DNA from: Chthonomonadales bacterium
GTDB taxonomy: Bacteria > Armatimonadota > Chthonomonadetes > Chthonomonadales > CAJBBX01
DNA: 64,000 nt
NCBI GenBank assembly: GCA_027459625.1
Contig: DAIDHP010000011.1
Coordinates: 1-64,000 of the forward strand
Reading direction: 5' to 3'
Shown here: in pieces, positions 3,498 to 49,225 of the stretch
Layout of the letters: each line of letters starts with the position of its first letter
How positions within the stretch are numbered: the stretch's first letter is position 1
Position numbers and translations under genes: made by a program
Notes under the pieces: generated by a model
Databases searched by the model: none
Seen by the model: the letters and a program-made list of their open reading frames with translations, nothing else
What the model was told of the DNA's origin: nothing

Positions 3498-5399
3498 ATG
3501 AACGAATCGAACTATGATGTCATCGTGATCGGGGCAGGGCATGCGGGTTGTGAGGCGGCTCTCGCGTCCGCAAGAATGGGTCGTAAGACGCTCCTGGTCA
3601 CTCTCAATACGGATCGCATTTCGCACATGCCGTGCAACTGCTCCATAGGAGGCCCCGCCAAGGGGCACCTCGCACGGGAGATCGACGCGCTGGCGGGCGA
3701 AATGGGCGTCACCACGGATTTAACTCTCACCCACATCCGATTCGTCGGAACCGGCAAGGGTCCCGCGATCCAAACCCTCCGAGCGCACGCCGACAAGACA
3801 CTATATCCGCTCAGAATGCGCGAGGTGGTCGAAAATCAGGAGAATCTCACGCTCCTTCAGGGCTCCGCCGAGGAGATTCTATCGACGGACGCGGCACGAA
3901 AACGGGTCAAGGGAATCCGCCTCGGGGATGGAAGGATATTTCATTCCAAGGCGGTTGTCGTCACAACCGGCACCTTCCTGAACGGATTGATGCATTGCGG
4001 CGAAAAGCGAACCGTCGGTGGGAGGCACGGCGAGGTTGCGGCGGAGGGGCTCTCCCATTCCCTCGCGGATTTGGGAATCCGACTTGGACGGTTCAAGACC
4101 GGCACCACCCCTCGCGTGGACAAGAAGACAATAAACTGGGATCGCGTGGAGCCGATACCCTCCGAGGACTGCCCCCCGTTCTCGTTTATCCACGAGAAAC
4201 TGAACCCTCCAAAGCCGTTGCTGCCCTGCTGGTACACGCACACCACTCTGGAGACACATCGCATCATCAAGGAGAACCTGCACCTCTCGGCGCTGTACGG
4301 TGGGCGCATCAAGGGGGTGGGACCGCGTTACTGCCCCAGCATAGAGGACAAGATCGTGCGGTTCGCCTCAAAGGATTCGCACCCTGTGTTTCTGGAGCAG
4401 GAGGAGTGGGATTCCGACTGGCTCTACGTGCAAGGAATGAGCACAAGTCTGCCGGAGGATGTCCAGATCGCGTTCCTCCATAGCCTTCCGGGGTTGGAGA
4501 ATGTGCGCATGTTCCGCGCCGGATATGCGGTGGAGTACGACATGGCTTACCCCGACCTATTGCATCTCACACTGGAGAGCAAATTGGCGGAGGGGCTCTT
4601 CCTCGCGGGACAGATCAATGGAACCTCGGGCTATGAGGAAGCGGGAGCGCAGGGACTGGTGGCGGGGGTGAATGCCGCGTTGCTTGCGGGTGGGGAGGAA
4701 CCCGTCACGTTCAACCGCAAGGACAGCTACACCGGTGTAATGATCGATGATCTCGTGACCAAAGGGGTTCAGGACCCATACCGCATGCTCACATCGAGGG
4801 CGGAATACAGGTTATCGCTTCGCCATGACAACGCGGATATGCGCCTCACCCCGCTCGCGCATAAACTCGGATTGGCGAGCGAAGAGCGCTGGAGCATCTT
4901 CACCCTCAAACGGGATGCGATTGAAAGCGAAATGGACAGATTGGCGAACACCTTCCTCACCCCGCGAGACAATGCGATACTGCGAGGCGCAGGAACGGAC
5001 CCAGTGGGCACGAAAGTGAGTCTGCGGGAGATTTTGAGGCGACCGGATATCAATTACCAGTGGATCCGCGACCACTTCCCGGCGGATGCTCCGATCCCGC
5101 GGGATGTGGCGGATCAAGTGGAGATTCAAACCAAGTACGAAGGGTACATTGATCGTCAAAAGGCGCAAATCCAGGATTTCAGCAAGATGGAGAGCATTTT
5201 AATTCCGCAGGAGATGGAATACAAAAGCATACGCACTATCTCGATGGAGGGACGAGAACAACTCACGCGCGTCAAGCCGATAAGCATCGGGCAGGCGTCG
5301 CGCATTCCGGGGGTCACTCCCGCCGACTTGCAGATGCTCCTCATCTGGATGAAGCGACGTTCCTGCGATGCGGGTGAGGAGGAGGCGCTTGACTCCTGA
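3498..5399 (+). CDS. mnmG: tRNA uridine-5-carboxymethylaminomethyl modification enzyme MnmG (GidA)
   Basis: This 633-residue protein is the FAD-binding half of the MnmE-MnmG complex, which installs cmnm5 on the wobble uridine of certain tRNAs. The N-terminal FAD loop IGAGHAGCE is at residues 11-19. The diagnostic CNCSIGGPAKGHLAREIDA stretch follows at about 46-64, and the second family signature GTSGYEEAGAQG is present. Length matches the family (about 620-640). An in-frame ATG lies upstream, but MNESNYDVIVIGAG at 3498 is where homology begins and where the -10 box predicts a leaderless start. No mnmE or parA/parB neighbours are visible, unlike the arrangement in many bacteria. Call is firm. 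Confidence 0.97.
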   Translation: MNESNYDVIVIGAGHAGCEAALASARMGRKTLLVTLNTDRISHMPCNCSIGGPAKGHLAREIDALAGEMGVTTDLTLTHIRFVGTGKGPAIQTLRAHADKTLYPLRMREVVENQENLTLLQGSAEEILSTDAARKRVKGIRLGDGRIFHSKAVVVTTGTFLNGLMHCGEKRTVGGRHGEVAAEGLSHSLADLGIRLGRFKTGTTPRVDKKTINWDRVEPIPSEDCPPFSFIHEKLNPPKPLLPCWYTHTTLETHRIIKENLHLSALYGGRIKGVGPRYCPSIEDKIVRFASKDSHPVFLEQEEWDSDWLYVQGMSTSLPEDVQIAFLHSLPGLENVRMFRAGYAVEYDMAYPDLLHLTLESKLAEGLFLAGQINGTSGYEEAGAQGLVAGVNAALLAGGEEPVTFNRKDSYTGVMIDDLVTKGVQDPYRMLTSRAEYRLSLRHDNADMRLTPLAHKLGLASEERWSIFTLKRDAIESEMDRLANTFLTPRDNAILRGAGTDPVGTKVSLREILRRPDINYQWIRDHFPADAPIPRDVADQVEIQTKYEGYIDRQKAQIQDFSKMESILIPQEMEYKSIRTISMEGREQLTRVKPISIGQASRIPGVTPADLQMLLIWMKRRSCDAGEEEALDS

Positions 5400-41841: not shown

Positions 41842-43806
41842 ATGAGCAATTTCATATATTACGTTCCGCTCTCGATTATCTTAGTCGCTTTGATTCTTGC
41901 GCCTCTTGTATTCGCTTTTGTGATATCCATTGTTCGTTCCGACTACCTTTGTTCCCTGATTATCATCGTGATAGCTGCGGTTTTGGCGATTTCCTCCCTT
42001 ATCCTTTTCGCGCGTGTGACGATCACGCACCAGATCATTCACTACGCACCGGGATTGATCGACTGGAACCTTCTCGTAACGATTGCGGATTTCGGCTTGA
42101 TGGCGATGTTTATTCGGATGGGCGTTCGACGCAAAAGCGTGCTCATACTTGTATTCGCCGTCATTCAGACCATCATACTCGCATGGGTGGAGTTTGGTCC
42201 GAAGCACACGGAGATGGCGTATCCGCCGATTTTCATCGACTGGCTTTCCATCGTGATGACGCTTATCGTATCGATAGTGGGGTCCATTGTCGCCATTTAT
42301 TCGCTGCCCTATATGCGCGAACACGAACGGCATCAAAACCTGACGGTCAGCAAGCAACCTCAATTTTTCCGCACGCTCCTGCTATTTCTGGGAGCCATGA
42401 ATGGGATGGTTTTATCAGGCAATCTCCTATGGATCTATTTTTTCTGGGAGATAACCACATTATGCAGCTTTTGCCTCATCAGTCATGACGAAACCGAGGA
42501 GTCGCTGCGTTACGCCACCCGCGCTTTGTGGATGAACATGGTGGGAGGTGTGGGGTTTATCACCGGTATCGCCCTGATACAGTTAAAAAATCTGCCGATG
42601 GACGCCAGTCGTCTCTTGCAGCTTGTGCATACGGGTAATGAGGCGCATCTTGTCGCCCTCCTGATGCTCCCGATGGCGTGTTTATGCTTTGCGGGTTTCA
42701 CCAAGGCGGCTCAAATGCCCTTCCAATCCTGGCTGCTTGGAGCGATGGTGGCGCCCACGCCGGTATCCGCACTTCTTCACTCCAGCACCATGGTGAAAGC
42801 GGGCGTCTATTTAATCATCCGTTTCGCGCCGATTTTCCGTCACACCGGCCTGAGCGAGATGGTGGCGATCGTGGGAGCCTTCTCCTTTATCACCGGTGCG
42901 ATGCTCGCCATTGGTCAGTCCAACGCCAAAAAGGTCCTCGCCTATTCCACGATCTCCAATCTGGGCTTGATTATCGCATGCGCCGGATTGAACACGCCCC
43001 TCGCCTTGGCGGCGGCGGTGATGCTCATCATCTTTCACGCGGTCTCCAAGGGGCTGCTGTTCATGGCTACGGGCGTGGTGGATCAATCCATCCACAGCAA
43101 GGATATCGAGGACATGCAGGGCTTATGGGCAAGCATGCCTTTAACATCTCTGATCATGGTGATTGGGATCCTCTCCATGCTCCTGCCGCCGTTCGGAGTG
43201 CTGATCGCCAAACTCGCCGCGATAGAATCCTCCATCCAAAATCCTCTGGTGATGGCCATGCTTGTGATCGGCAGCACGCTCACCGTTGTATTCTGGACGA
43301 AGTGGATGGGGAGAATGCTGGCGACGAATCCCCGAGCGGACGGACGCAAGAGGGAGAGTCTTCCCGCGCTGTATGCCGGCACATTAGCCGTCCTTGCAAG
43401 CGGAGCCGTTATTTTGAGCCTTTTTGTCAAGCCGATTCTGGAAAACCTTGTGCTTCCCGCAGTGGCGAATTATTATAACGTCGCCGGCATGGAAATGACC
43501 CCCACGGTTCTAAGCGCACCGTGGTTAATGATATTCCTTGTTATTGCGCTCTCCGTTTTGGCCCCGACTTTCTTCAACCATCTTCGATCCAGCCAAATCA
43601 AGCCGGCGTATTTATGCGGAGAGCAGATCGCCTCCCATTCCACAACGGCTCAGTTTTTGACCGTTGCGGATAGCGCCGCGGAGATGACGGTGCGGGGTTA
43701 CTATTTTGAAAAGGTTACGGACGAGTCCGTTCATGTGAAATGGGTGACGATAGTTGCCACTCTATTGATAGTCATTCTATTTGGAGCAGTCTATCTGTGG
43801 AAATAA
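41842..43806 (+). CDS. echA: Ech hydrogenase subunit A (NuoL-like ion-translocating subunit)
   Basis: A 654-residue protein with many membrane helices (about 16). The family core is clear: YFFWEITTLCSFCLISHDE, the conserved FTKAAQMPFQSWLLGAMVAPTP region and LHSSTMVKAGVYLI, then IGQSNAKKVLAYSTISNLG, all typical of antiporter-like subunits of complex I and energy-converting hydrogenases. It would pump ions as electrons pass from ferredoxin to protons. First gene of a six-gene run in the exact order of Methanosarcina echABCDEF. Its end overlaps echB by 10 nt. Confidence 0.93.
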   Translation: MSNFIYYVPLSIILVALILAPLVFAFVISIVRSDYLCSLIIIVIAAVLAISSLILFARVTITHQIIHYAPGLIDWNLLVTIADFGLMAMFIRMGVRRKSVLILVFAVIQTIILAWVEFGPKHTEMAYPPIFIDWLSIVMTLIVSIVGSIVAIYSLPYMREHERHQNLTVSKQPQFFRTLLLFLGAMNGMVLSGNLLWIYFFWEITTLCSFCLISHDETEESLRYATRALWMNMVGGVGFITGIALIQLKNLPMDASRLLQLVHTGNEAHLVALLMLPMACLCFAGFTKAAQMPFQSWLLGAMVAPTPVSALLHSSTMVKAGVYLIIRFAPIFRHTGLSEMVAIVGAFSFITGAMLAIGQSNAKKVLAYSTISNLGLIIACAGLNTPLALAAAVMLIIFHAVSKGLLFMATGVVDQSIHSKDIEDMQGLWASMPLTSLIMVIGILSMLLPPFGVLIAKLAAIESSIQNPLVMAMLVIGSTLTVVFWTKWMGRMLATNPRADGRKRESLPALYAGTLAVLASGAVILSLFVKPILENLVLPAVANYYNVAGMEMTPTVLSAPWLMIFLVIALSVLAPTFFNHLRSSQIKPAYLCGEQIASHSTTAQFLTVADSAAEMTVRGYYFEKVTDESVHVKWVTIVATLLIVILFGAVYLWK

Positions 43807-44648
43807 TTAACATATTCTTTGTTGTTGTGATCGCCCCGGTCATTGGCGGGTTGCTGTTTGGATTGGATCGAAAATTGACCGCGAGGCTGCAGAAACGGAT
43901 GGGCCCGCCGATATTGCAGCCTTTTTACGACCTGATTAAGCTTTTCGGAAAAGGCAGGATAGCGGCGAATCAATTTCAGTTGATCAGCGTATCCGTTTAC
44001 ATAGCCTGCACGATCCTCTCTTTGATATTGCTGGCTACGGGGCAGGATCTGCTCGTGCTGCTATTCGTACTGGCTCTGGGTCATATCATGCTGATACTTG
44101 GGGGGTTCAGCGTCCGTTCCCCCTACAGCCAGATAGGGAGCCAGAGGGAGATACTGCAGTTGATGGCGTATGAGCCATTGCTGGTATTTATGGTGATAGG
44201 AACCTACCTGAAGACGGGCAGCTTTTTGGTATCCAACCTGATGACCGGTTCATACAAGCCTCTCTTGATCTCCCTTCCGGCGTTTCTACTGACCCAGATA
44301 ATCGTTATGGCGATCAAACTGCACAAATCCCCTTTCGATATCTCCGCATCGCACCACGCACATCAGGAGCTTGTGAAAGGGATATACACCGAGTTCTCCG
44401 GGGCGCAACTCGCCTTGATCGAAATGGCGCACTGGTACGAACTCATTCTTTTAATGGGCTTTATCGCCCTTCTTTGGCAGACGAACCTCATTATCGGCGG
44501 ATTAATCGCCTTCGCCTGCTTCCTGGCGGTGATTCTTTTGGATAACATCTCCGCCAGATTAACTTGGAAATGGATGATCCGGTTCGCATGGACGTTCGGT
44601 GTTGGGATATCGGTGGCGAACCTTACTGCGATTTATATATTAAGGTGA
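43797..44648 (+). CDS. echB: Ech hydrogenase subunit B (NuoH-like)
   Basis: A 283-residue membrane protein with about eight helices that anchors the hydrogenase module to the ion-pumping module. RKLTARLQKRMGPPILQPFYDLIKLF is the NuoH-type signature spanning the quinone-side loop, and HKSPFDISASHHAHQELVKG is the second conserved loop. GTG at 43797 is chosen: GGAG is 11 nt upstream and the homology begins with the first helix; longer in-frame versions would translate the echA C-terminus out of frame. 99 bp separate it from echC. Confidence 0.92.
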   Translation: MEIINIFFVVVIAPVIGGLLFGLDRKLTARLQKRMGPPILQPFYDLIKLFGKGRIAANQFQLISVSVYIACTILSLILLATGQDLLVLLFVLALGHIMLILGGFSVRSPYSQIGSQREILQLMAYEPLLVFMVIGTYLKTGSFLVSNLMTGSYKPLLISLPAFLLTQIIVMAIKLHKSPFDISASHHAHQELVKGIYTEFSGAQLALIEMAHWYELILLMGFIALLWQTNLIIGGLIAFACFLAVILLDNISARLTWKWMIRFAWTFGVGISVANLTAIYILR

Positions 44649-44747
44649 TTGTAAAATGCGCTCGGCATTCTTCAATAAATGCGTTAAACACCGCCAAATG
44701 CACTTTGGGAGGATTTTGCAGTCACCGTTATTGGAAGGCTTTGCGAG

Positions 44748-45170
44748 ATGAACATACTGCAAAAATCCCGCGCCAAGTCCCCTTGGATACTGCATTACGA
44801 CGCCGGGGCTTGCAACGGCTGCGACATAGAGATACTGGCGTGTCTGACTCCGGTGTATGATATCGAGCGGTTCGGGATGGTCAATGTGGGAAACCCGAAG
44901 CATGCGGACGTGCTGCTTGTGACGGGAACATGCAACAAGCGTAGTGCGCGGGTGTTGAAAAACCTCTATGACCAGATGCCCGACCCCAAGGTTGTAGTCG
45001 CCGTGGGGGCGTGCGCTCTCTCCGGGGGAATCTTTCACGAATGTTACAACGTATTGCAAGGCGTTGACGGCACGGTACCCGTGGATGTTTACGTTCCCGG
45101 GTGCGCCGCGCGCCCGGAGGCGATTATGGAAGGGGTTATGATGGCCCTGGAAAAGATGAACCAAAGATGA
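44748..45170 (+). CDS. echC: Ech hydrogenase small subunit C (NuoB-like)
   Basis: A 140-residue subunit that carries the proximal [4Fe-4S] cluster. Four ligand cysteines are visible: Cys22 and Cys25 in GACNGCDIE, one in GACALSGGIF and one in VPGCAARPE. There is no N-terminal extension or Tat signal, so the hydrogenase faces the cytoplasm. Overlaps echD in ATGA. Confidence 0.95.
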   Translation: MNILQKSRAKSPWILHYDAGACNGCDIEILACLTPVYDIERFGMVNVGNPKHADVLLVTGTCNKRSARVLKNLYDQMPDPKVVVAVGACALSGGIFHECYNVLQGVDGTVPVDVYVPGCAARPEAIMEGVMMALEKMNQR

Positions 45171-45562
45171 TGGAAACCATGGAGATCAAACCTCAGGAAA
45201 TTATTGACATTCCGAATATCCGCGACGTGGATGTTTCCGAATTGCTGGACAGGGTCAAAAAAGCTGCGGACGAAAAGAGACGATTTGTGACGATGACCGC
45301 TCTGGATCGCGGGGATCATTTCGAGGTCCTTTATCATTTTGATCGGGACCTCCATTTGGAGCACCTGCGAGTAAGAGTCCCAAAGGGGCAGACACTTCCC
45401 AGCATCAGTTCCGTGTACTTAGCCGCCTTCCTGGTGGAAAACGAAATCAAGGAGCTATTCGGACTCGAAATAACCGATATCGCCATTGATTATCAAAACC
45501 ACCTCTATCTCATCGAGGGAGTTGAACCGGCGCCGATGGCAAAGGATAAGCCGCTTGAATAG
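45167..45562 (+). CDS. echD: Ech hydrogenase subunit D (NuoC-like)
   Basis: A 131-residue NuoC-like subunit: the conserved FEVLYHFDRDLHLEHLRVRV strand region, then ISSVYLAAFLVENEIKELFGL. Three ATGs are close together (45167, 45170, 45179); the first overlaps the echC stop and is preferred. Structural subunit that bridges the small and large subunits. Confidence 0.9.
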   Translation: MMETMEIKPQEIIDIPNIRDVDVSELLDRVKKAADEKRRFVTMTALDRGDHFEVLYHFDRDLHLEHLRVRVPKGQTLPSISSVYLAAFLVENEIKELFGLEITDIAIDYQNHLYLIEGVEPAPMAKDKPLE

Positions 45563-45584
45563 GATGAATCGCTAGGAAAAAAGA

Positions 45585-46664
45585 ATGTCAAACAGAACAG
45601 TAATACCTTTCGGCCCTCAGCACCCCGTCCTTCCCGAGCCGATTCAATTGAAATTGGAGTTGCAGGATGAGACCGTGGTGAGCGCCATTCCCCATATCGG
45701 CTATGTGCATCGAGGAATCGAGAAAGCTGCGGAGCGCATGGAATACACTCAGAACGTATTTCTAGTGGAGCGCGTTTGCGGCATCTGCAGCTTTATTCAC
45801 GCCCTCTGTTATTGCCAAGCGATCGAGCAGTTGCAAAACATCGAAGCTTCTCCTCGCGCAAAATATCTGCGGGTGATTTGGAGCGAATTGCATCGTCTTC
45901 ACAGCCACCACCTGTGGCTAGGACTTTTCGCGGACGCCTTCGGCTACGAGAGCCTCTTCATGCAATTTTGGCGCAACCGCGAGATGCTGATGGATATCTT
46001 CGACAAGACCGCGGGCAGCCGGGTGATCATCTCCACCTGCGCCATCGGCGGCACAAGGAGGGATATCAGCGATGTCCATCTCCAGGAGATACTGGATACG
46101 CTCGACGAAGTGGAAAAACAACTCGACAAGACACTCCCCGTCATCCTTAATGATTATACGGTCAAAAAACGCACTGTCGGAATTGGAAAGATAACCCGGG
46201 AACAGGCTCTGGAACTTGGAGCGGCAGGACCGGTGTTGCGCGCCAACGGGGTGGCGCAGGATATGCGACAACTGGGTTACGCCGCCTACGGGGAGCTTGG
46301 CTTTGAACCTGTGACGGAAAACGACGGCGACTGCTACGCCAGAGCGAAAGTGCGCGCCAGAGAGTGCTACCAAAGCGTGGAGTTGGTGCGAAAAGCCATT
46401 CGGCAGTTGCCAGACGGGGAGATTCTAACCAAACCCAAGGGGAGGCCGAAAGGTCAGGTTATCTCCCGGGTGGAGCAGCCGCGAGGAGAATTGCTCTACT
46501 TTCTATCGGCGGACGGAACGAACCGGTTGGACCGGCTGCGTATTCGCACCCCCACCTTCGCAAATGTGCCCCCATTGGTGGCGATGCTCCCAGGATGCGA
46601 GCTGGCGGATGTTCCAGTAATCGTGCTCTCCATAGACCCATGCATCAGCTGCACGGAGAGATGA
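45585..46664 (+). CDS. echE: Ech hydrogenase large subunit E with NiFe site
   Basis: This 359-residue catalytic subunit retains both CxxC pairs that bind the NiFe centre: RVCGICSFIH (Cys65, Cys68) and DPCISCTER at the C-terminus (Cys353, Cys356). This separates it from NuoD of complex I, which has lost them. The protein ends three residues after the last Cys, so there is no C-terminal extension to be cleaved by a maturation protease, as is known for other Ech large subunits. Likely reaction: reversible H2 formation with ferredoxin. No hyp maturation genes are in the window. Confidence 0.95.
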   Translation: MSNRTVIPFGPQHPVLPEPIQLKLELQDETVVSAIPHIGYVHRGIEKAAERMEYTQNVFLVERVCGICSFIHALCYCQAIEQLQNIEASPRAKYLRVIWSELHRLHSHHLWLGLFADAFGYESLFMQFWRNREMLMDIFDKTAGSRVIISTCAIGGTRRDISDVHLQEILDTLDEVEKQLDKTLPVILNDYTVKKRTVGIGKITREQALELGAAGPVLRANGVAQDMRQLGYAAYGELGFEPVTENDGDCYARAKVRARECYQSVELVRKAIRQLPDGEILTKPKGRPKGQVISRVEQPRGELLYFLSADGTNRLDRLRIRTPTFANVPPLVAMLPGCELADVPVIVLSIDPCISCTER

Positions 46665-46688
46665 ATGAAAGAAACCGGAGGACACTCC

Positions 46689-47042
46689 ATGATAAATAAC
46701 GTGCTTTCCAACCTGTTTTCCAAACCGGCGACGCGAGACTTCCCGGCGAAAATGCGCGAAATCGCCGAGAACGTGCGTGGCTCGGTGGAGTTCAACACAG
46801 AAAACTGCGTGTATTGCGGCGCGTGCGCATTAAAATGTCCCGCAAACGCCATCGAGGTGGATCGACCCGCCAAGAAAGTCACCTTCGATCTGTACAAATG
46901 CGTGGCGTGCGCCTGTTGCGCGGAGGCTTGCCGCAAAGGGTGCATCCAGATGGCGAAGCAATACGCGCATCCCTCCTACCGAAAGATGGATGTCGTATTC
47001 CAAGGCGAGCCTCTTTTAACGGATGCAAACGGCGATTCTTAA
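46689..47042 (+). CDS. echF: Ech hydrogenase ferredoxin subunit F (NuoI-like)
   Basis: A 117-residue protein with two [4Fe-4S] motifs: CVYCGACALKC (Cys40, 43, 46, 50) and CVACACCAEAC (71, 74, 77, 81), with an extra Cys at 76. It takes electrons from soluble ferredoxin. The start at 46689 has GGAGG 7 nt upstream; an in-frame ATG directly after echE is less likely. No terminator hairpin is visible after it; a sigma-54 promoter begins 55 bp on. Confidence 0.93.
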   Translation: MINNVLSNLFSKPATRDFPAKMREIAENVRGSVEFNTENCVYCGACALKCPANAIEVDRPAKKVTFDLYKCVACACCAEACRKGCIQMAKQYAHPSYRKMDVVFQGEPLLTDANGDS

Positions 47043-47096: not shown

Positions 47097-47112
47097 TGGC
47101 ATGCCTTTTGCA
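47097..47112 (+). promoter_or_regulatory. Sigma-54 promoter P1
   Basis: TGGCATGCCTTTTGCA: GG and GC are separated by 10 nt, matching the -24/-12 consensus. About 145 bp upstream of P2; what it transcribes is not clear. Confidence 0.7.
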
Positions 47113-47240
47113 GTATGTATATGTGTGTGCGTTTGCTACGCTGATCCGACGATGGATTTGACCAGCCTTATGAGCCGTAGAAAAGCCGCTTTTTGGCTTT
47201 CCCTGATAATTTTTCTTGTTTTTTCGGGTAATCGGGGATT

Positions 47241-47257
47241 TTGGCACGCTACTTGCA
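47241..47257 (+). promoter_or_regulatory. Sigma-54 promoter P2 of first PEP-CTERM gene
   Basis: TTGGCACGCTACTTGCA is an essentially perfect -24/-12 element (TGGCAC-N5-TTGCA, GG-N10-GC). It would start transcription about 118 nt before the ATG at 47387. Confidence 0.88.
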
Positions 47258-47386
47258 CTATACTCATATGGGAGTAAACCGAGAAGGCGAATTCGCAGTG
47301 ACGATCCGTTCAGGCTTTCTCTATACATTTTTGTGGGGGACACCCCCTCACGCCACAGAGGACACTCACAGGAAGGAGAGTTATAA

Positions 47387-48076
47387 ATGATGCAAAGTTT
47401 TAAGAAATTGATTATCGGGCTTGCAGCCCTTTTGTTGTTGACGGTAGGACATTCAGCAAATGCAGTGACGTTGGACACACTTTTAAGTGGAGGAACCATT
47501 ACATCGGGGAACTTGACTTTTGGTAACTTCTCTTATACTGATAGTGCAAACTTGTCCGTCCCAGCCTCGACAATAAATGTAATTCCAATACAACAGCCTT
47601 TTTCTAAGACATATGGATTGGAATTTAGCGGCTCTTGGGTTACAAGTACGACCCCGGTCACTGCTGATTATACTATTTCCTATACTGTAACCGCACCCAC
47701 CGCAACTATTGATGATTACGAACTGAATATGACGGGAGCTATAATAGGTACTCCACCAACAGGACAAATAACAATCGCTGAGAACGCCATAGATCAAAAT
47801 AATAACGGATTGGCATCTATCGGTACAGCATTAGCCTATAATGGTTCATATACACCAACATTGTCTATATTAAGTGCCAAAGGGTATTTTCCCTTGCAGT
47901 CAAAGCTTTTAATAAATAAAAACATCAATATTTCAAATGGTGCAGGCACTATTACACACCTATCGGTTGTAGATCAAAACTTCTCACAAGTTCCGGAGCC
48001 GAGCGCTTTGATGATGCTCTTCGGATCGGGCATCTGCGGAAGCCTGTTCTTCCTGCGAAAGAGGAGCGTCGCCTAA
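47387..48076 (+). CDS. PEP-CTERM protein, copy 1
   Basis: A 229-residue exported protein. The signal peptide covers residues 5-26 (LIIGLAALLLLTVGHSANA). The mature part begins VTLDTLLSGGTITSGNLTFG, a motif shared with the next gene, and is Thr/Ser/Asn-rich and beta in character. The C-terminus has the sorting signal VPEPSALMMLFG, a hydrophobic helix and the basic tail FLRKRSVA, as recognised by exosortase, so it is processed at the membrane and probably goes to the cell surface or exopolysaccharide matrix. AAGGAG precedes two adjacent ATGs. No exosortase gene is in the window. Confidence 0.93.
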   Translation: MMQSFKKLIIGLAALLLLTVGHSANAVTLDTLLSGGTITSGNLTFGNFSYTDSANLSVPASTINVIPIQQPFSKTYGLEFSGSWVTSTTPVTADYTISYTVTAPTATIDDYELNMTGAIIGTPPTGQITIAENAIDQNNNGLASIGTALAYNGSYTPTLSILSAKGYFPLQSKLLINKNINISNGAGTITHLSVVDQNFSQVPEPSALMMLFGSGICGSLFFLRKRSVA

Positions 48077-48119
48077 TTCGGACGGACACCAAGGATTTAT
48101 ACGCCTTCTCCCCTAAACT

Positions 48120-48150
48120 CTCCCGCCTTCTCTGTGGCGGGAGTTTTTTT
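48120..48150 (+). terminator. Rho-independent terminator
   Basis: A perfect 8-bp stem, CTCCCGCC with GGCGGGAG, an 8-nt loop and seven T. Nearly identical to the terminator of the second PEP-CTERM gene. Confidence 0.95.
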
Positions 48151-48409
48151 GCGCGGGTAAGAGGGAAATGGACATGCAATATTCCCCGGTTACCTTCTCC
48201 AAGCGATCCGCACCTCACCATCGTATTATTGCCTGATTTTCAAATATTGCCGTTTTGACAACTTTATGGCATGCATTTTGCTCTATTCATTATTAGGATG
48301 TGTTCCGAGGAAGACCCCCGCCAACAACCTGACCGGAAGGGGCGCCCCTTGGATTTCACCAAAATCGCGAGGATCGCCGAAGGATGATCCAAATAAGGAG
48401 TACGCGCAA
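48151..48409 (+). other. Leader region of second PEP-CTERM gene
   Basis: It contains sigma-54 promoter P3 and a palindrome AAGGGGCGCCCCTT (48337-48350) within the predicted 117-nt leader. Together with the terminator the gene-free gap is 333 bp; nothing else is recognised. Confidence 0.55.
48267..48282 (+). promoter_or_regulatory. Sigma-54 promoter P3 of second PEP-CTERM gene
   Basis: TGGCATGCATTTTGCT: GG-N10-GC, the same spacing and similar wording as P1. Predicted leader of about 117 nt, equal to that from P2 to the first gene. Confidence 0.82.
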
Positions 48410-49150
48410 ATGCGAAAAACATGCTTGTTGACAATCGGTTTGGCTACGGTCATGATGCTATCGGTCGGGTTGACCGCTAATGCGGCTTCATTGACCTTAT
48501 ATGACCTGTTAACCCCTGGCTCAACCATCACATCGGGGAATTTAACGTTCTCCAACTTCAATTTCTCCGGGGGTTCTCTGCCCGACTACATCACTGATGC
48601 GGATGTGGAGAACAACATAACGGTATCTCCCTATGCGAACCAAACTGGCTCGGGGTTGGATTTCAACATGATGCCACAATCCAACATGTTTTGGTTCTTA
48701 TCGAATTTGGCGTATAACAATGCCAACATATCCTGGGGGTATGATGTTTCATCCGATCGAATACTCTCCAACGCTTTGACCTACAATTGGATTTTGTTCG
48801 GGGCTTCAGGCGGATCGAATGGTACGGGGAGCGTCGATTTGACGGAAACCGCTACCAACAACAATAACACTCTCTCAGACTTGTCGCTGTCAACCACAGT
48901 TTCGTCGACGGTTGGCATCAACGGGACATCCATCACTGCATCTTCCCCGAATATACCAGCCCCCGCCAATTACTCGCCGTATTCCATGTTGCATGTGGAT
49001 AACAACCTCGCATTCACATCCAATAATGCGGCTATCACATTAGGCCATATAGATGAAACCTTCGTACCGGAGCCGAACTCCCTGACAATGCTGCTTGGAT
49101 TGGCTGTTTGTGTCAGCCTGGTCTTCCCGAGGAAGAGGAGCGTCGCCTAA
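48410..49150 (+). CDS. PEP-CTERM protein, copy 2
   Basis: A 246-residue paralogue of the gene at 47387. Its signal peptide covers residues 4-24 and its mature start SLTLYDLLTPGSTITSGNLT is related to copy 1. The body is Asn/Ser/Thr-rich. The C-terminus is VPEPNSLTMLLGLAVCVSL, then PRKRSVA. The first ATG of the longer frame overlaps the promoter; the start at 48410 has AAGGAG 9 nt before it. Its own sigma-54 promoter and terminator make it a separate unit of the same design. Confidence 0.92.
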   Translation: MRKTCLLTIGLATVMMLSVGLTANAASLTLYDLLTPGSTITSGNLTFSNFNFSGGSLPDYITDADVENNITVSPYANQTGSGLDFNMMPQSNMFWFLSNLAYNNANISWGYDVSSDRILSNALTYNWILFGASGGSNGTGSVDLTETATNNNNTLSDLSLSTTVSSTVGINGTSITASSPNIPAPANYSPYSMLHVDNNLAFTSNNAAITLGHIDETFVPEPNSLTMLLGLAVCVSLVFPRKRSVA

Positions 49151-49192
49151 GCCGCGCGAGCTCCCTGGGATTTTACACGCCTTATCCTTTCA

Positions 49193-49225
49193 CTCTCCCG
49201 CCTACTCCGTGGCGGGAGAGTTTTT
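49193..49225 (+). terminator. Rho-independent terminator
   Basis: A perfect 10-bp stem, CTCTCCCGCC with GGCGGGAGAG, an 8-nt loop and five T. It faces the convergent pfkB gene. Confidence 0.93.

Follow-up and report, generated by a model that had tools for sequence, protein, structure and literature searches.

The three -24/-12 elements that precede two tandem PEP-CTERM genes in the window (the whole 64,000-nucleotide stretch of DNA analyzed) are likely sigma-54 promoters that belong to an extracellular-matrix regulon extending across the genome; its activator appears, from its sequence, to work without an enhancer. The evidence comes from the locus itself, from the distribution of the same promoter across the genome, from the architecture of the activator, and from the joint presence or absence of these components in relatives.

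Promoters and genes at the locus

The pattern TGGCAY-N5-TTGCW is matched exactly on the forward strand at 47097..47112 (P1, TGGCATGCCTTTTGCA), 47242..47257 (P2, TGGCACGCTACTTGCA), and 48267..48282 (P3, TGGCATGCATTTTGCT), always with GG-N10-GC spacing, and these are its sole exact matches on either strand of the 64 kb window. The original prediction of three sigma-54-type motifs before tandem PEP-CTERM genes is therefore borne out; its positions for P1 and P3 were correct, while P2 begins at 47242 rather than 47241. When the +1 is set 12 nt past the GC of each element, transcription is predicted to start near 47123, 47268, and 48293. P2, the proximal promoter of gene 1, would give a leader of 119 nt to the ATG at 47387 (about 118 nt had been proposed), and P3 would give one of 117 nt to the ATG at 48410, as proposed; from P1, the distal promoter of gene 1, the leader would be 264 nt. 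The probability of at least three exact sites in 1186 bp is approximately 2e-9, with the rate taken from the genome-wide reversed-pattern control. Given this value and the lack of any other exact match in 64 kb, a chance origin of the three locus sites was rejected. A version of the pattern with a 4-base spacer, which has the wrong spacing and zero exact matches in the window, was dropped. P1 and P2 are both retained at the orthologous locus of G001, a genome of the same genus, in a comparison whose sites were partly chosen for the motif itself; the conserved P1 block there adjoins sequence that aligns at only ~40%, as does the stretch between P1 and P2. No strong sigma-70-like site was found upstream of gene 1 or gene 2. 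Judged by their sequence, P1, P2, and P3 are very probably RpoN promoters.

Gene 1 (47387..48076, forward strand) encodes a 229-aa protein with a signal peptide, a variable extracellular part, and a PEP-CTERM tail (VPEPSALMMLFGSGICGSLFFLRKRSVA). It scored 27.8 bits against PF07589 in a Pfam profile search (cut-off 20.7) and weakly resembles the floc protein PepA model NF033554 (30.3 bits, cut-off 80). Gene 2 (48410..49150, forward strand; 246 aa, tail VPEPNSLTMLLGLAVCVSLVFPRKRSVA) is its tandem paralogue, with 37% identity between the proteins, and is borderline for PF07589, at 20.4 bits alone and 20.8 bits with its frame neighbours against the same cut-off of 20.7. Both have the PEP-CTERM architecture of a signal peptide (assigned by eye) and a C-terminal PEP, hydrophobic stretch, and basic tail. 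Both genes come with a separate RBS and a separate intrinsic terminator on the forward strand, with an 8-pair stem and T tract at 48120..48152 for gene 1 and an 11-pair stem and T tract at 49192..49225 for gene 2, and so each would form a single-gene unit. An Rfam search of the region returned nothing near any gathering score, which argues against a known riboswitch in the leaders; leader folding z-scores ranged from -0.59 to -0.78, and no leader hairpin common to the whole regulon was found.

The G001 orthologue of gene 1 (L253:82-795) is 52% identical in sequence. Its promoter, leader, signal peptide, and PEP-CTERM tail have scarcely changed between the two genomes, whose activators share 97% identity. 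The sequence comparison thus suggests a surface protein that evolves rapidly within an otherwise constant framework. A predicted structure for gene 1, computed from an input of two sequences, was discarded at a mean pLDDT of 37. Directly upstream of P1, at 41842-47042, lies an operon resembling an energy-converting membrane hydrogenase, with complex I-like subunits, a small and a large subunit with CxxC pairs, and a ferredoxin.

There is an appreciable, if minority, chance that only P2 and P3 drive genes and that P1 is a relic or the source of a short RNA ending before P2. P1 sits 145 nt upstream, and in G001 a hairpin followed by a T tract (CGGATT..AATCCG, then ATTTTTT, at L253 ~940-1000) lies between P1 and P2, so that a short RNA might be transcribed from P1 by way of sigma-54. 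However, the P1 core is retained in G001 beside sequence of ~40% identity, and the window, which has only an imperfect version of the hairpin, lacks a canonical terminator between P1 and P2. P1 is kept here as the putative distal promoter of gene 1.

A promoter shared across the genome

The promoter is not confined to this locus. TGGCATN5WTGCA has 31 matches in the genome versus 2 for the reversed control, and a further motif count gave 37 versus 2; the looser TGGCAYN5TTGCW has 22 matches in the 4.55 Mb genome versus 9 for the reversed pattern. Thirty aligned sites read T-T-T-G-G-C-A-T-G, N, an A/T-rich stretch, W-T-G-C-A, and then TATT, an alignment in which only the core formed part of the selection, so that the T ahead of it, the G behind it, and the A/T run farther on emerged independently of that choice. 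The approximately 30 sites, with the consensus TTTGGCATG-N4-WTGCA, lie upstream of some 17 PEP-CTERM genes plus other targets. The same promoter precedes other PEP-CTERM genes: a genome search with PF07589, run without reference to promoters, returned 14 matches, and 11 of them have the exact motif upstream where ~0.1 would be expected by chance (hypergeometric ~1e-22, for a gene count estimated at 3500-4300). A twelfth (C2:168585) has a site with one mismatch, and no promoter was found upstream of the other two (C16:27352 and C25:26071).

Other targets, assigned from simple ORF calls with predicted starts on selected genome stretches, include an EPS-priming-family sugar transferase (TIGR03025 over cut-off) at the start of a stretch of polysaccharide genes on contig C19, another such stretch at C19:55179, and a glycosyltransferase on C48. 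Outside the PEP-CTERM and EPS genes, the promoter precedes two prepilin-type genes (C16 and C12) and a REC-PilZ gene. The prepilin motif FPVFAxAREKA points to Armatimonadota as the probable phylum. Two sigma-70-type sigma factor genes, one RpoD-type and one ECF-type (L251:6361-7452 and L065:5716-6357), also lie behind sigma-54 promoters, an arrangement that suggests a sigma cascade. The exosortase genes that were to be sought are present in three copies (PF09721 over cut-off), and typing of one of them assigned it to no subtype. With an intact rpoN, these exosortases, and a common promoter ahead of most PEP-CTERM genes and also of exopolysaccharide genes, the surface or matrix programme first proposed for this locus is well supported at the level of sequence. 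It is plausible that all promoters of the regulon answer the same signal, which would fit a single programme.

Some sites do not fit this picture so readily. Motif matches within coding sequence on C5, C17, C35, C52, and C65 are probably due to chance. A perfect sigma-54 site at C7:56714 of the window's genome (G000), matched in G001, has no same-strand gene start for ~1.7 kb downstream. Two PEP-CTERM genes with sigma-54 promoters in front of them, at L060:13856-14716 and L056:14939-15708, are broken up into several reading frames and would be pseudogenes or assembly errors.

The activator and its proposed mode of action

A genome devoid of rpoN would have refuted the original prediction, but one intact rpoN gene is present: a single, complete copy of 479 aa, with region I present and the RpoN box ARRTIVKYRE. 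PF00158 has one strong match in the genome, the activator (E 3e-73); the six remaining matches are weak, as AAA+ proteins of other kinds would give. The activator consists of REC, Sigma54_activat, and AAA lid domains and ends there, with no C-terminal HTH. Read from the sequence, its loop is NAFTGA in place of GAFTGA, and its Walker A and B motifs are GESGTGKE and GTLFLDEV. Validated activators with N at this position, the only ones in their organisms, are on record from Paracoccus and Ruegeria (PMC3162934). A GAF-GAF-PAS-HisKA-HATPase kinase is encoded directly upstream of the activator, and behind it lies a REC-PilZ gene with its own sigma-54 promoter, whose product also lacks an HTH. Twenty loci were selected for the activator gene and independently of the motif; in 12 of them a sigma-54 motif follows the activator's stop codon at a distance of 20-112 nt. 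Where there is enough sequence, the following gene is of REC type, PilZ-like in most. Most kinases upstream of the activator (L058:11167-13866; L282-L289) carry, beyond a linker, a short terminal tail of the hydrophobic-P-D type, on which the activator might dock.

The short activator is not a broken gene, as the same short tail occurs in 18 genomes, which belong to the window's order and two other families of the phylum. From GNVREL on, the tail measures 35-42 residues in these HTH-less activators versus ~130 in HTH-bearing ones of the same phylum. They form one clade (support 0.857), so that a single loss of the HTH is the simplest reading, and 16 of the 18 have NAFTGA instead of GAFTGA. Among named genomes, the closest activator is that of the MAG 'bacterium isolate MAS4.bin79' (97% identical); the next matches, from Bdellovibrio and Rokubacteria, are HTH-bearing.

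Activators with this architecture have precedents. The sequence has the features of type Ic, namely REC and AAA+ without a DNA-binding domain, a GAFTGA-type loop, and Walker motifs, and FlgR of Helicobacter and CtcC of Chlamydia either act without such a DNA-binding domain or lack it in their architecture (PMC3162934, PMC7482065). Like these type Ic proteins (Francke 2011, PMC3162934), the activator ends after the AAA+ lid, is apparently the sole one in its genome, and would serve a regulon defined by the promoter. Unlike them, it has a NAFTGA loop, lost its HTH separately within this phylum, and would target matrix proteins and polysaccharide, not flagella or developmental genes. The survey by Francke 2011 (PMC3162934) described sigma-54 as a controller of the bacterial exterior, with exopolysaccharide and surface targets as here, but PEP-CTERM and exosortase are not mentioned there.

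A de novo k-mer search upstream of the promoters found no enriched element beyond mildly enriched A/T runs, an absence of enhancers judged by simple k-mer tests. Together with the missing DNA-binding domain and the FlgR and CtcC precedent, the lack of a common upstream site points to enhancer-independent action. The GAF-GAF-PAS kinase would sense a signal and phosphorylate the REC-AAA+ activator, which would act from solution on all RpoN holoenzymes poised in closed complexes; if so, the -24/-12 element alone would set membership of the regulon. The products would then be exported, sorted by exosortase, and laid down with polysaccharide, and the REC-PilZ gene behind the activator probably ties the programme to c-di-GMP. 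It is also conceivable, though rather improbable, that the promoters are of the sigma-54 type but that the activator relies for DNA binding on a partner protein or on weak, lineage-specific enhancers. The absence of a common k-mer leaves room for degenerate or DNA-shape-based sites, and the A/T runs upstream could be read in this way. However, the loss of the HTH is old and clade-wide, the REC-PilZ partner has no HTH either, and both FlgR and CtcC manage without a DNA-binding domain. Enhancer-independent activation is thus the reading we prefer.

In Proteobacteria, and in that group only, Haft 2006 (PMC1569441) found PEP-CTERM genes preceded by sigma-54 sites and, farther upstream, by a motif 1, in company with PrsK, PrsR, and PrsT; motif 1, which ends in TTTACA, lies 32-92 nt upstream of motif 2 (PMC1569441). 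RpoN dependence has been experimentally shown for the PEP-CTERM gene pepA of Aquincola (PMC9850573). The original prediction extended the PrsK/PrsR logic to this lineage, and that part found no support. With 387 bits, the activator falls short of the cut-off of 502.6 for the PrsR model (TIGR02915); it has no Fis-type HTH and is matched better by the AtoC, NtrC, ZraR, and NifA models. The best PrsK score (TIGR02916) is 92.5 versus a cut-off of 300, in another gene and for the kinase end only, while the kinase upstream of the activator matches the model by its catalytic end only, far under the cut-off. PrsT (TIGR02917) reaches at best 195.8 bits versus 312.2. TTTACA, the end of motif 1 and the only part of it that was tested, occurs upstream of 1 of the 30 sites where 0.84 would be expected.

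That the proteobacterial PrsK/PrsR/PrsT system itself is present, by descent or transfer, is accordingly very improbable, even though its output is the one described by Haft 2006 (PMC1569441): -24/-12 promoters before single-gene PEP-CTERM units, a kinase and a sigma-54 activator in tandem, and a link to exopolysaccharide and exosortase. Beyond the sub-threshold scores, the absent HTH, and the missing motif 1, the regulon here differs in that EPS, prepilin, and sigma-factor genes use the same promoter. The output is conserved relative to Proteobacteria, whereas the activator and enhancer, on their sequences, are not. Among the papers searched, nothing relevant linked PEP-CTERM with Armatimonadota, and no case outside Proteobacteria appeared in the titles and abstracts listed for PEP-CTERM with sigma-54.

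Distribution among relatives and meaning

Across 41 relatives, rpoN and the activator are found together in 25 and both absent in 15; the activator never occurs alone, and the one relative with rpoN only is a 64%-complete genome. Within the order, at a completeness of at least 90%, a motif excess is seen in 12 of 14 genomes with rpoN versus 1 of 11 without it (p = 2e-4, a value that is indicative, as the genomes are related), or 11/1 versus 0/5 when collapsed by genus. Six genomes from three genera of family f1, as well as G018, have neither rpoN nor the activator, and likewise show no PEP-CTERM genes and no motif excess. G022 is discordant: at 95% completeness it yielded 70 motifs and 30 PEP-CTERM genes, yet neither rpoN nor an activator was found. 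Since both are present in G025, of the same genus, an assembly gap is the likely cause, and because the two genes are close together in several relatives, one gap could remove both. G040 has 14 PEP-CTERM genes and no rpoN. In G032 the PEP-CTERM genes number 33, the activators are HTH-bearing, and the motif shows no excess; the association of sigma-54 with PEP-CTERM genes is therefore not a phylum-wide rule.

Single 16-bp patterns do arise randomly, as the 9 reversed matches for the looser pattern illustrate, but it is extremely improbable that the motifs arose by chance and that the genes are read from promoters of the sigma-70 type, given the excess of 31 over 2, the placement of sites before PEP-CTERM genes, the loss of this excess in relatives without rpoN, and the lack of a strong sigma-70-like site upstream of either gene.

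With the sites taken as sigma-54 promoters, the reading we moderately favour is that RpoN in this lineage has become single-purpose, serving a single kinase and a single activator whose DNA-binding domain was lost in one event, with an extended -24/-12 code alone defining an extracellular-matrix regulon. The joint loss of rpoN, activator, promoters, and PEP-CTERM genes in several genera would follow if nothing else depends on rpoN. If this is true, the link between PEP-CTERM and sigma-54 arose or was rewired independently of PrsK/PrsR. The output and the sigma factor agree with Haft 2006, whereas the activator, kinase, PrsT, and enhancer differ. The same output under a different activator and a different promoter choice, in an uncultured lineage, suggests that sigma-54 control of exosortase cargo has been reached by different regulatory routes. 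In such a compact regulon, the promoter element alone would predict matrix genes, and the intact and co-lost genomes form a natural series for testing it.
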